From NCBI RefSeq assembly GCF_003977755.1, contig NZ_RQWN01000001.1, forward strand, positions 1,256,995 to 1,320,994: a stretch of 64,000 nucleotides of DNA, read 5' to 3'. A program made the position numbers and the translations under genes. The stretch comes from Haloterrigena salifodinae (GTDB lineage Archaea; Halobacteriota; Halobacteria; Halobacteriales; Natrialbaceae). Under the pieces are notes generated by a model. The model saw only the letters and a list, made by a program, of their open reading frames with translations, ran no database searches and was not told the DNA's origin. Below are positions 10,925-16,854 of this stretch, in pieces (the stretch's first letter is position 1; every line of letters starts with the position of its first letter).

Positions 10925-11288
10925 GGATCGTAGATGGCGGTAGCCAGCGACATATGTGGTTGTGTAGCACAGGCTTGCACGAGACGACTCATCGACGGGC
11001 GCCGCGACGGCGGCGCGTACCGTCCGTCACGGAATCGGAACGGGGCCATACTACCGACGGCGGGCGGACGCCCCATCAGTATTCGATGAATAGGTACACG
11101 AACGCGTCCGTTCCGACACTGTACCGTCGCATTTCTGTCGGCGATCTACTCGAAGGGTGTTGCTTCGCACACATATGGGCGGCGTACGTGTTCGTCAGCG
11201 GCGGCGTTTCGCGCGCGACACCGGACGCAGTCCCGGTAACTGCCGTCTTCAAACCGTCCGTCGAAACGGTTCGGTGTTCGTGACTATT

Positions 11289-11303
11289 ACCGTTCAGAAC
11301 GGT
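11289..11303. promoter_or_regulatory. perfect palindrome ACCGTTC-A-GAACGGT
   Basis: Fifteen-base inverted repeat 206 bp upstream of the multicopper oxidase ATG. It could be a dimeric regulator site or the stem of a small hairpin; there is no T tract after it to argue for a terminator. Confidence 0.3.
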
Positions 11304-11419
11304 CAACTGCGTCGGGGACGAATGCGGGTCGTAACGGTTCCCTTTCTGGAAGGTATCTCACTCAGAAATAAGGAATGAGATAGAATATTTGTACAGTTGA
11401 ACTACCTCCCTCTACAGAA

Positions 11420-11439
11420 TAGCTTACGAACGTGAGCTA
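11420..11439. promoter_or_regulatory. inverted-repeat operator candidate upstream of the multicopper oxidase
   Basis: TAGCTTACGAACGTGAGCTA is a palindrome with a single mismatched pair. It sits immediately before the TATA-like sequence and about 70 bp ahead of the ATG, the usual place for an activator or repressor site. The regulator is not known. Confidence 0.4.
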
Positions 11440-11508
11440 GAGCATTACAATAATTGACACTCTGTTTCGCCAGTCTGTAGCGCTCGATGACTGCTCTACT
11501 CACGACTA

Positions 11509-14500
11509 ATGTCTGACGAACCAGAATCACGACACTGCACGGGGAATCGACCACAGAACGCTATCGGCGGCTCCTCTCGACGCACGTTTCTAAAGGGGTC
11601 GGCGGTCTCCGCTGGGATGCTGGCCACGGCCGGTTGCTTCGGGGAAAACTCCGCCACCGGTGAGGACGAGACGACGGGGATGTCCCCCGGCGACGGCGAG
11701 CCTGCACCGGGCGGGCAGGTCCGACAGTACACCGTCCACGCGATCGAGGCCGATATCGTCTACGACGCGTTCGGACTCCACCAACCGAAGGCCGCAATCT
11801 ACGTCCTCGAGGAGAACCTCGTGGAGGCGCTGGCCGCGTCGGGCGTCACGCCGGACGACGCCTTCGCCGACCTGCCCGACGACGCGCGCGACAAGAAACG
11901 CGAGAAGAAAGACAAACACCGCGCCGATCTCAGCAAGAAAGAGCGGAAAAAAGCGAAGAAGAAACTCGAGACGGCTGACGCGGAGATCGAGGAGGCGAAG
12001 AAGCGCAAGGAGAAGGCGAAAAACGACAAGGAGCGCAAGAAAGCGCGGAAGGCGCTCCATCACGCACGCGAGAAGAAAGCGACGGCCAAGCGGAAGCTAG
12101 GCGACGTCGATACGACCGTCCTCCAGCCGCTGACGATCCGCGCGAACGCGGGCGACGTAGTCGAGATCGAGTTCGTCAACCACCTCGATCGGCACGCTTC
12201 GATGCACCAGACGGCGCTGCCCTACCAGGTGACGGAGTCCGACGGGGCGAACGTCGGTTTCAACACGGACACGACCGCGGCGCCTGGGGAGACGGTCGGT
12301 TACGAGTGGTACGCGACCCACGAGGGGACCCACTTCTTCCACGACCTCGCCAATCCGGCGTTCGACAGCGCCGACGCGCCGCCGGAGGAGGCCAACCTCG
12401 TCTCCCGCGGCCTGTTCGGTTCGGTGGTCGTCGAGCCGCCGGAGGCGACGTGGACCCACCCCGAGACCGGCGAGGAACACCGCAGCGGCGTTCGCGCGGA
12501 CGTTCACGTGCCCGGCGACGACGAGCCGTCCCACCGGGAGTTCATCCTTCACTACCACACGCCCGAGGGCGTCTATCCCGCGGACGGCGGGGAGTTAGTG
12601 TGGCCGGGGACCGACGAACCACAGACCGTACACGCGATCAACTACCGTGCCGATCCGACCGGCAGCCGACTAGGGCCGGAGGGACTGGCCCAGATCGACG
12701 AGGACATTACCCTCGAGGAGGCCACCGAGTTCTTCTACAACTCCTGGCTGTTCGGCGACCCCGGCGGTGGCGACAACGTCTACCGGACGTACGTCGGCGA
12801 TCCGGTGAAGATGGTCGCCGTTGGTGCCTCCCACGAGGAGCGCCACGCCCACCACCAACACGGCCACCGCTGGAAGGAGACAGAGCGCGAGGACGCCGAC
12901 ACGATCGACGCCCAGAACCTCGGCTTCGGCGGGACCCACGAAACGCGGCTGGTCGTCGCTCACGGCGGCGTCGGCTTCTTCAACGTGCGTCCGCTCGGTT
13001 TCGGTCCCGGGGAGGTCCCCGATCGACTCGAAGGTGGCTTGAACCTTGTCGAGGACGACCTGAACCTCGAGGGAGAGGCCCTCGGAGAGGATCCCGACGG
13101 CGTCGCCGATCCGCTCACGTCCGCGCGGCCACAGATGAGCTTCGAGGAGGCATTCGAGGTCGGCGCCGGCGGCGCCCACCGCAGCGCCGGCGACTTCCTA
13201 CTGCACTGCCACCTCTTCCCTCACTATGCCGAGGGCATGTGGGGCAGTATGCGCGTCTACGACAAGGAGCAGGACGATCTCCAACTGCTCGAGAACAACG
13301 CGCCGCCGCTGGACGAGGACGATGAGACCCCCGGCTTCCCCGACTTCATCCCCGGCGAGCAGGGGGAGATTCCGCCGCAGCCGCCGTACGACTTCATCCG
13401 GGATCCGACGCCCGAGGAGGCCGCGGCTCTCGGCGATATCATCCCGGGAGCGCCGTACACCGACCCGTGTGACCCCGAGGTCGGAACCGAAGAGTTCGGC
13501 GGGCCGGCGTCCGGTGAAGACGCGCCGGTACGCGAGTACGACATCTTCGCGGTGCCGTCCGAACTGGTCTACAACGACGCCGGCGACCACGACCCCGAGG
13601 GGCAGGTGTACGTCTTGGAGGAGAACCTCGTCGATGTCCTGACGGGGAAGATGAACCCCGAGCCGCTGGTGATCCGCGCCAACGTCGGCGACTGCGTGGA
13701 GATCAACCTGACGAACCTGATGCCCGACGGTCGGTCGAACCACATCCACTTCGTCTCCTACGACGTCCTCGGCTCGGACGCGCTCTCGAACGGCTTCAAC
13801 TACGACCAGACGGCGTACCCGGGCGAGACGATGCCCTACCGCTGGTACGCCGACGAGGAAGGGACGATCTTCTTCCACGACCACATCAACGGGATCGAGG
13901 AGGTCATGAAGGGTCACTTCGCCGCGCTGATCGTCGAACCCGAGGACTCCGAGTGGCTCGATCCCCACACCGGCGAGCCGATCGAGTCCGGATCGCAAGC
14001 GATCATCACCCAGCCCGACGGCGATGATTTCCGCGAGTTCGCCCTGCTGTACCACGACTTCGCGCCGCTACGTAATCGGCAGGGGAACTTCGTCAACCCG
14101 CAGGAGGAACACAACCAGAACGCCGGCGTGATGGCGATGAACTACCGGAACGCGCCGTACTATCGCCGCGGCAACGACCCCGATCCGGCGTACGTCCACA
14201 GCTCCTACGTCCACGGCGACCCCGAGACGCCGACGCTCGAGGCCTACCACGGCGATCCGGTCCGGATCCGGCTGGTCATGGGCCCCTACGAGGAGCAGCA
14301 CAACTTCCACATCAACGGCATTCAGCTGAACCCGGCCGGCGTGAACCCGGAAGACTCCGTCTCCCAGGCGATCCACATCTCGGAGGCGTTTACCTTCTTC
14401 CTCGAGGCCGACGCCGACGACCTCCCGAACCCGGACGGACTGCCGGTCTACGACCACCTCTACGGTTCGGGGGTCGTCGACGACCTCTGGGACGGCATGT

Positions 14501-16587
14501 GGGGTATTCACCGCGTCTTCGACGCCGAAGTCGATCACCTGCAGCCCCTGCCCGACCGCAGCGCGCCGGAGGGCGAGATCACCGAGGAGCAACTTCGCGA
14601 GATGGGTCACCCCGCGCCGTTCCTCGACTGGGAGGAACTGGGCCGCAAAGCGTGGCTCACCTACCCCGAGGACGTCCAGCAGCAGTACGGTCTCGGCAAG
14701 GAAGCCCTCGACGAGGAGTGGCAGCGCGACCTCGTCGAGGCGTTCGAACAGACGAAACAGCAGGGACTGCTCTCGAAGTTCCTGCGCGGCGAGCTCACGC
14801 TGAAGGACCTCCTCGAGGCCCTCGGGTTCAGCCGGAAGGAGTTCGAGGACCGAACGGGGATCGATCCGAAACGACTGCAGAAGCGCCTCGACGAGTTCGA
14901 CGGAATCGGCCGCGTCGACAAGCCGCCGTTCCCGCCGGACAGGCCGGCCCGCCGGAACCCGAACATCGGCGAGATCCCGCCGCAGGCGCCCGATCCGGGA
15001 GACGAGTGTCCCGACGACGCGATCGTCCGCGAGTACGACGTCACGGTCTTCCAGACCGACATCGAGTTCAACGAGTACGGCGACCACGATCCCCACGGGA
15101 TCGTCTTCGCACTCGACGAACACGTCGACGAGATCCGCGCCGGCGAGCGGCCGGCGACGCCGCTGACGATCCGGGCCAACGAGGGCGATTGCGTCCAGAT
15201 CAACCTCACGAACGAACTCCCGGCTGACTTCACCCCGGATCACGCCCACCCCGAGATGCGGACCCGGGAGCAGGACCTGGGCATCGAGTGGGACGAATCG
15301 AACCGCGCCTCGCTGAACCCGCAGCGCCTCGAATACGACGTACAGGGCTCCGACGGAGCGACGATCGGCTTCAACTTCGACCAGACGATCGCGCCCGGCG
15401 AGACGATCACCTACCGCTGGTTCGTCGACCAGCAGCTGGGTACGTCGATTCTGTGGGACATGGCGGACATCCGCGGCCACCGCCACCACGGCGCCTTCGG
15501 CCGGCTGCTCATCGAGCCCGACGACTCGACCTGGCTCGATCCCCGCACGGCCGAGCCGCTGGCCGACCACGGCGACCGGTTCGCGGCGGCGACGACGGCC
15601 GAGAGCATCATCGTTCCGAGCGACGGGCCGGCGTTCCGCGAGTTCCCGCTGTCGATCAGCGACGGGCGGTACATCATCAACCGGCAGAATCCCGACGACT
15701 GCGTGGTGCCGCCGGGTCCCGACAACGATTCCGACGCGCCGTGTAATCAGATCCCGGACGATCCCGAGGATCAGGGGTACATGGCGATCAACAACCGTGC
15801 GGAGCCGTTCATCAGACGGTTTCAGACCGGATCCGACGAACAACACCTCGTCTTCGACTCCGAGGTCCACGGCGACCCGGCCACGCCGGTGTTGAACGCG
15901 TTCCTCGACGACCCCGTCCGGATTCGCGTCAACCACACCGCCGACAAGGCCCGGGGCGTCGACTTCCACCTCGCCAGCCACCAGTGGCTCCGCCATCGGA
16001 ACGTCCCCGAGTCCGAGATCATCGGCGTCAGCGACCAGTTCATGCCGGGCAAATCGCGCCGCGTCGACCCGCTCGGTGGTGCTGGCGGTCTCGTCGACAG
16101 CGTCGGCGACCACATCTACCAGGAGACGAAGATGCGACGCCGCCTCGAGGCCGGCGCCTGGGGAATCTTCCGCGTCGGAGAGGACGACGACGACTTCACC
16201 GACCTCGTCCAGCCGCTGCCCGACCGCGTGCCGAAGAAACGCCGCGATCCGAAGAATCGGCAGGGGTGGACGGTCGCCTCCGGCGACTGTAACGGCAACG
16301 GCGAGACGGACATCTTGATCGGCGTCCCCGACAGCCACGTCGGCGGCGTCGACGCCGGAGCCGCGTACCTGTTCTACGGCCCGGTCGACGAGAAATCGAT
16401 CACGGATCTCTCCGATGCCGACGTCCAGTTCGTCGGCAAGCCGGGCAAGCGCGTCGGTACCGATGTCCACATCGGCGACGAGACGATCTATCTCGACTCG
16501 AAAGGGCAGAAGGCCCGGTACGCCTTCGACGGAACGAAGACGCGCCGCGGATCGGTCAGTGTCGACGACGCCGACCGGAAGAACTGA
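11509..16587 (+). CDS. giant Tat-exported multicopper oxidase lipoprotein, three cupredoxin modules plus FG-GAP-like tail
   Basis: 1692 residues. The N-terminus has a Tat motif SRRTFLKG and a lipobox ATAGC, so it should be exported folded and lipid-anchored. Three homologous cupredoxin modules start near residues 71, 674 and 1173 (each VREYD/VRQYT ... LTIRAN.GD ... PGET..Y.W). Copper motifs: HAHHQHG (446-452) and HCHLFPH...M (566-577, with Cys567/His572/Met577 as the type-1 site) end module 1; HIH (745-747) and HDH (790-792) begin module 2. Together these supply all four motifs of a blue-copper/trinuclear centre in permuted order; equivalents elsewhere in the protein are degenerate. Residues 129-196 are a Lys-rich coiled coil inserted in a module-1 loop. 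About 1587-1690 resembles an integrin FG-GAP blade (DCNGNGETDILIGVPD). The closest known architecture is the MnxG/ceruloplasmin-type multidomain oxidases; Mn or other metal oxidation is a guess. Confidence 0.85.
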   Translation: MSDEPESRHCTGNRPQNAIGGSSRRTFLKGSAVSAGMLATAGCFGENSATGEDETTGMSPGDGEPAPGGQVRQYTVHAIEADIVYDAFGLHQPKAAIYVLEENLVEALAASGVTPDDAFADLPDDARDKKREKKDKHRADLSKKERKKAKKKLETADAEIEEAKKRKEKAKNDKERKKARKALHHAREKKATAKRKLGDVDTTVLQPLTIRANAGDVVEIEFVNHLDRHASMHQTALPYQVTESDGANVGFNTDTTAAPGETVGYEWYATHEGTHFFHDLANPAFDSADAPPEEANLVSRGLFGSVVVEPPEATWTHPETGEEHRSGVRADVHVPGDDEPSHREFILHYHTPEGVYPADGGELVWPGTDEPQTVHAINYRADPTGSRLGPEGLAQIDEDITLEEATEFFYNSWLFGDPGGGDNVYRTYVGDPVKMVAVGASHEERHAHHQHGHRWKETEREDADTIDAQNLGFGGTHETRLVVAHGGVGFFNVRPLGFGPGEVPDRLEGGLNLVEDDLNLEGEALGEDPDGVADPLTSARPQMSFEEAFEVGAGGAHRSAGDFLLHCHLFPHYAEGMWGSMRVYDKEQDDLQLLENNAPPLDEDDETPGFPDFIPGEQGEIPPQPPYDFIRDPTPEEAAALGDIIPGAPYTDPCDPEVGTEEFGGPASGEDAPVREYDIFAVPSELVYNDAGDHDPEGQVYVLEENLVDVLTGKMNPEPLVIRANVGDCVEINLTNLMPDGRSNHIHFVSYDVLGSDALSNGFNYDQTAYPGETMPYRWYADEEGTIFFHDHINGIEEVMKGHFAALIVEPEDSEWLDPHTGEPIESGSQAIITQPDGDDFREFALLYHDFAPLRNRQGNFVNPQEEHNQNAGVMAMNYRNAPYYRRGNDPDPAYVHSSYVHGDPETPTLEAYHGDPVRIRLVMGPYEEQHNFHINGIQLNPAGVNPEDSVSQAIHISEAFTFFLEADADDLPNPDGLPVYDHLYGSGVVDDLWDGMWGIHRVFDAEVDHLQPLPDRSAPEGEITEEQLREMGHPAPFLDWEELGRKAWLTYPEDVQQQYGLGKEALDEEWQRDLVEAFEQTKQQGLLSKFLRGELTLKDLLEALGFSRKEFEDRTGIDPKRLQKRLDEFDGIGRVDKPPFPPDRPARRNPNIGEIPPQAPDPGDECPDDAIVREYDVTVFQTDIEFNEYGDHDPHGIVFALDEHVDEIRAGERPATPLTIRANEGDCVQINLTNELPADFTPDHAHPEMRTREQDLGIEWDESNRASLNPQRLEYDVQGSDGATIGFNFDQTIAPGETITYRWFVDQQLGTSILWDMADIRGHRHHGAFGRLLIEPDDSTWLDPRTAEPLADHGDRFAAATTAESIIVPSDGPAFREFPLSISDGRYIINRQNPDDCVVPPGPDNDSDAPCNQIPDDPEDQGYMAINNRAEPFIRRFQTGSDEQHLVFDSEVHGDPATPVLNAFLDDPVRIRVNHTADKARGVDFHLASHQWLRHRNVPESEIIGVSDQFMPGKSRRVDPLGGAGGLVDSVGDHIYQETKMRRRLEAGAWGIFRVGEDDDDFTDLVQPLPDRVPKKRRDPKNRQGWTVASGDCNGNGETDILIGVPDSHVGGVDAGAAYLFYGPVDEKSITDLSDADVQFVGKPGKRVGTDVHIGDETIYLDSKGQKARYAFDGTKTRRGSVSVDDADRKN

Positions 16588-16653
16588 TCAATCGCGCGGT
16601 CGGCTCTCTCCGGGACCCGAATCTATTTTTCGCTGTCACGTCGAACGAGACCC

Positions 16654-16854
16654 ATGAAACAGCGACGCTGTCCCGACTGCGGCGTGACGATGGAACCGGT
16701 TCCGGTACGTGACGGCGAAAGCATGGGGCTCTCGATCGCGACCGGCGAGCGGGAGGGACTGCTGGGCAAACTCGGGTTCAAGAACCGGGCGAAACTGCAG
16801 GGCGTCTGCTGTCCCGAATGTCAGCTCGTCCGGTTGTACGCCGAGGAGGAGTGA
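16654..16854 (+). CDS. zinc-ribbon hypothetical protein, 66 aa
   Basis: Two Cys pairs, CPDC at the N-terminus and CCPEC near residue 52, frame a central segment with a GLLGKLGFKN loop, giving a small zinc-ribbon fold. A TATTTTT box lies about 28 bp ahead of the ATG, fitting a leaderless transcript separate from the preceding oxidase. It is convergent with trm1. Function unknown. Confidence 0.75.
   Translation: MKQRRCPDCGVTMEPVPVRDGESMGLSIATGEREGLLGKLGFKNRAKLQGVCCPECQLVRLYAEEE

Follow-up and report, generated by a model that had tools for sequence, protein, structure and literature searches.

The DNA analysed here, referred to below as the window, is a stretch of 64,000 nucleotides from Haloterrigena salifodinae. 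Between a gene for a BrkB/YihY-type membrane protein and a small zinc-ribbon-like ORF followed by trm1, it carries a complete ORF for an MnxG-like six-domain multicopper oxidase of 1692 aa, which is located at positions 11509–16587 on the plus strand, as are all parts of this gene described below. The reading frame extends over 1692 codons from an ATG start to a stop codon with no internal stops. The small ORF that separates the oxidase gene from trm1 (window 16654–16854) starts with MKQRRCPDCG and contains two Cys pairs (CPDC...CCPEC), giving it its zinc-ribbon-like appearance.

Searches against Pfam identified three Cu-oxidase_3 and three Cu-oxidase_2 matches in the protein. Its N-terminal region contains a Tat signal with the motif RRTFLKG (residues 23–43; 11575–11637), which was detected by the TIGR01409 profile (18.6 bits versus a cut-off of 16.7), and at the end of this signal a lipobox-like TAGC can be read from the sequence; these two features suggest that the protein is exported. 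The main part of module 1 (residues 199–618; 12103–13362), comprising domains 1 and 2, aligns to MnxG residues 52–409. The first strands of domain 1 (about residues 70–116) precede a lysine-rich insert (residues 117–198; 11857–12102), which was recognized by its composition (41% K+R versus 7% in the remainder of the protein) and at whose site the relatives, in an alignment of 17 proteins, carry inserts of differing length. This insert is coil-like and lies within an otherwise acidic haloarchaeal protein. Module 2 (residues 672–1016; 13522–14556; domains 3 and 4), which also shows a colinear match to MnxG, is separated from module 3 by an insert (residues 1030–1140; 14596–14928) whose length likewise differs between relatives and which is predicted to be mostly helical, based upon the helices in an AlphaFold2 model. 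Module 3 (residues 1166–1565; 15004–16203; domains 5 and 6) has lost its copper ligands. Lastly, a single FG-GAP repeat is present near the C-terminus (PF01839, E=1e-5; residues 1586–1622; 16264–16374), and the extension containing it is common to the intact haloarchaeal relatives that were compared, whereas Sorangium lacks it. Some haloarchaeal copies of the oxidase have frames of only 1306–1399 residues.

A comparison with MnxG-type proteins had been suggested in a preliminary description of this DNA, and it revealed homology to Bacillus MnxG over the full length of the protein. Of the chains of solved structure, MnxG from Bacillus sp. PL-12 (9bxa_A) scored far above all others (E=3.1e-209), and the match consisted of three colinear stretches that cover all of the modules. 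Module 1 and module 3 also matched this chain when searched alone (E=2.7e-91 and E=1.1e-146, respectively). In the alignment of module 1 the solved MnxG reads HCHLYPAFGIGM, with an Ala at residue 340, and the PDB entry 9bxa is titled 'Structure of Mnx H340A complex'. Because H572 of the oxidase aligns with residue 340 and the solved protein is the H340A form, H572 corresponds to H340 of MnxG. The two proteins share six cupredoxin domains arranged as three modules, with motifs III and IV in domain 2 and motifs I and II in domain 3. They differ in that the oxidase is about 465 residues longer, and the Tat signal, the lysine-rich insert, the inter-module insert and the FG-GAP tail are all additional to what is found in the Bacillus protein. 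The best family match of the oxidase was to the NCBIfam MnxG model NF041487 (E=1.1e-64), but its score of 218 bits is far below the equivalog cut-off of 3100 bits, a cut-off under which three other haloarchaeal homologues (174–217 bits) also fall. Hence, we refer to the protein as MnxG-like and not as a proven MnxG.

In multicopper oxidases, the canonical ligand set comprises eight His residues at the trinuclear center, and the type-1 copper is held by a further two His, one Cys and one Met. It had been proposed that motifs III and IV, with a full type-1 site, close module 1 of the oxidase and that motifs I and II open module 2, and the residues are as described: motif III is HAHHQH (H446, H449 and H451; 12844–12861), motif IV is HCHLFPHYAEGM (H566-C567-H568, H572 and M577; 13204–13239), motif I is HIH (H745 and H747; 13741–13749) and motif II is HDH (H790, D791 and H792; 13876–13884). 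The numbered residues of each motif are invariant in all 28 sequences of our wider set. When assigned in accordance with established multicopper oxidase chemistry, these residues correspond to the complete canonical set of 12 ligands, and all 12 are identical in the 17 aligned proteins as well as in the set of 28. As only 143 of the 1692 columns in the latter are invariant, the invariance of the 12 ligands is far from chance.

The state of the other potential copper sites was assessed by projecting the ligand columns onto the remaining half-modules. In domain 1, H233 is retained without its partner (T235) and H278 is paired with L280; domain 4 has H931, H934 and N936 and the Cys is missing. 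At the ligand positions of module 3 (domains 5 and 6) the residues are N1270/Q1272, W1316/M1318, G1483, H1487, A1489, and T1540. These results agree with the earlier claims that the matching positions in the other half-modules are degenerate and that no recognized site is present in module 3, although some of the solitary His residues left behind are still well conserved. H233 and H931 are each present in 17 of 17 proteins, and the motif-I His of module 3 is found in 15 of 16, being replaced by Asn in the H. salifodinae oxidase. The contrast between these decayed duplicates and the 12 strictly invariant ligands also bears upon the possibility that catalysis has been lost and that the protein now serves as a structural or adhesive surface protein built on a leftover oxidase fold. 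The large size of the inserts and the FG-GAP extension at the C-terminus would fit such a role, but in view of the ligand conservation we regard this possibility as very improbable.

The order of the motifs, with III and IV preceding I and II, was correctly noted in the preliminary description, but the peculiarity that it implied is not borne out, since the colinear MnxG and the members of a published survey share the same layout. In this 2013 survey of six-domain multicopper blue proteins, the trinuclear ligands of the bacterial members analysed are in domains 2 and 3 and their mononuclear sites only in domain 2 (PMC3600357). The discussion in this work extends the domain 2/3 site to archaea, and its list includes proteins from Halorubrum lacusprofundi and Haloterrigena turkmenica. 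In the model proposed there, three duplicated two-domain units provide possible trinuclear sites at the 6/1, 2/3, and 4/5 interfaces, of which the chordate proteins kept 6/1 and the prokaryotic and green-algal proteins kept 2/3; at the 1/6 and 4/5 sites that were lost, some ligands remain (PMC3600357). Similarly, a study of a sponge-associated Bacillus names C/D and A/B as the copper regions of MnxG and has its region D primer (HCHL) upstream of its region B primer (HQQH) (PMC3039467). The "reversed" order is thus an ordinary outcome, because the 2/3 interface was the one that was kept. III-IV followed by I-II is the normal state of the MnxG family and not a peculiarity of the H. salifodinae oxidase. 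The oxidase resembles the prokaryotic six-domain proteins of the survey in that domains 2 and 3 supply its trinuclear ligands, its mononuclear site is in domain 2 only, and leftover ligands persist at the lost sites; as no qualitative difference from them is known, it represents a further member of this group.

Other types of multicopper oxidases were also considered. Ceruloplasmin and hephaestin are similar to the oxidase in that they also comprise six cupredoxin domains and place trinuclear sites where modules meet, but their trinuclear site is between domains 1 and 6, with the order I-II...III-IV, and they contain up to three type-1 sites. Assignment of the oxidase to this type was rejected as its corresponding positions in domains 1 and 6 are degraded. 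In the three-domain laccase or CopA type, motifs I-II...III-IV are found within about 500–600 residues, which does not fit the order III-IV-I-II of the oxidase, and its score against the CopA-type model TIGR01480 (46.6 bits) did not reach the cut-off of 479 bits. The fact that its motif order is unlike that of both laccases and ceruloplasmin could be explained if, recently and only in the lineage of this organism, a three-domain or ceruloplasmin-type oxidase had been circularly permuted or had had its domains shuffled. However, an identical order and identical ligands are found in all of the homologues, including those from Sorangium and the Bacillus MnxG, and the layout has already been published for the family (PMC3600357). 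Such an event is therefore exceedingly improbable, and a recent permutation specific to this genome is ruled out by the colinear homology with MnxG and with the bacterial and archaeal relatives.

AlphaFold2 models of the oxidase were built from 17 and 16 sequences, and both are of low confidence, with a mean pLDDT of 54.8 for the first (residues 198–1030) and of 66.0 for the second (residues 660–1600). In Foldseek searches the top match of both of these low-confidence models was 9bxa_A (E=1.7e-48 and 5.8e-72, respectively), with ceruloplasmin far behind. In the VIA comparison, the first model aligned with 9bxa_A over 585 residues (Z 17.3, rmsd 5.3, 35% identity), with a Z score that was tied with those for factor VIII and ceruloplasmin. 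On the basis of homology, the ligands would be expected to meet at the 2/3 interface in one trinuclear site. The boundary of modules 1 and 2 (domains 2 and 3) had also been proposed earlier as the only place for such a site, which is in agreement with both the homology to MnxG and the layout described in PMC3600357.

Taken together, the protein is very probably a Tat-exported, extracellular MnxG-type oxidase of six domains, probably anchored by a lipid, that contains one trinuclear copper site at the 2/3 interface and reduces O2, with a metal ion as the likeliest substrate. Its three two-domain cupredoxin modules would close into a ring, in which, at every interface between modules, a trinuclear site could in principle be built from the III/IV motifs of one module together with the I/II motifs of the module that follows; all of the ligands are retained at the domain 2/3 interface alone. 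An external substrate in its reduced form, for which a metal ion (Mn(II), Fe(II) or Cu(I)) is the likeliest candidate, would donate electrons to one type-1 copper, predicted in domain 2 (H446, C567, H572, and M577). The electrons would then pass by way of H566-C567-H568 to three coppers bound by H449, H451, H566, H568, H745, H747, H790, and H792, where O2 would be reduced to water. We infer this route from the conservation of the ligands and from what is established about the chemistry of multicopper oxidases.

A clear match to the oxidase was detected in 24 of the 391 Halobacteria genomes sampled, some of which contain two copies, and relatives are encoded at thirteen haloarchaeal and three Sorangium loci. 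Sorangium cellulosum So0157-2 contains two MnxG-type genes in tandem (locus L017:7800–17178). In Halalkalicoccus paucihalophilus the homologue (L015:7890–12088) is split into two overlapping frames, indicating a frameshift in either the gene or the assembly. Within the genus, the genes flanking the oxidase are about 5.9 kb apart in H. salifodinae and in one other genome, with the oxidase between them, whereas in 4 of 6 genomes the same genes are only about 0.4–0.6 kb apart and the oxidase is lacking. The empty sites align with the window up to position 10980, and in three of the four the alignment resumes at about 16611–16634; no remnant of the oxidase was seen at any of the four. The oxidase is thus present or absent in the genus as a single gene cassette of 5.6 kb (window 10981–16610). 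The zinc-ribbon-like small ORF is also found at the empty sites of these genus-mates. In the other carrier the oxidase protein is 84% identical, yet the flanking genes are 94–95% identical in DNA.

The kinship with MnxG makes Mn(II) a plausible substrate, with Fe(II) or Cu(I) as the alternatives. That the enzyme is specifically an Mn(II) oxidase producing Mn oxides, as MnxG does, is favored by the facts that MnxG is its nearest solved relative and that the NCBIfam MnxG model is its best family match, and we consider this quite possible, though at somewhat less than even chances. Its score is far under the equivalog cut-off for that model, and among the papers searched none described haloarchaea oxidizing Mn or was directly relevant to this question. 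Further, the activity of the Bacillus Mnx complex requires MnxE and MnxF, encoded in an mnxEFG arrangement (PMC5622069). Possible partners were sought by an all-against-all comparison of the flanking ORFs at the haloarchaeal loci, which rests mainly on loci from genome contigs and on the window, since many loci have almost no flank. In this comparison no operon partner recurred regularly; it yielded only the oxidase itself, its shadow frames and one large ORF with a response-regulator-like start, the last of these in three haloarchaeal loci. Unlike in the Bacillus system, no MnxE/F-like neighbor was seen among the recurring flanking ORFs of these loci, which were compared with each other. One speculative and rather unlikely reading is that a haloarchaeal branch of MnxG-type enzymes dispenses with MnxE and MnxF: the enzyme would be an Mn(II) oxidase anchored in the membrane and self-sufficient as a single protein, in which the inserts and the FG-GAP extension stand in for the accessory hexamer. 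If this were true, the branch would constitute a one-gene archaeal maker of Mn oxides.

The oxidase is an ordinary, if little-studied, member of the known MnxG family, and as its architecture has already been described, little changes in principle. What is useful is that this family is spread patchily across the Halobacteria as a stand-alone gene. The genus-mates that possess or lack the gene at the same site provide a clean natural comparison for the question of whether Mn is oxidized by an archaeal enzyme of the MnxG type in the absence of MnxE and MnxF.
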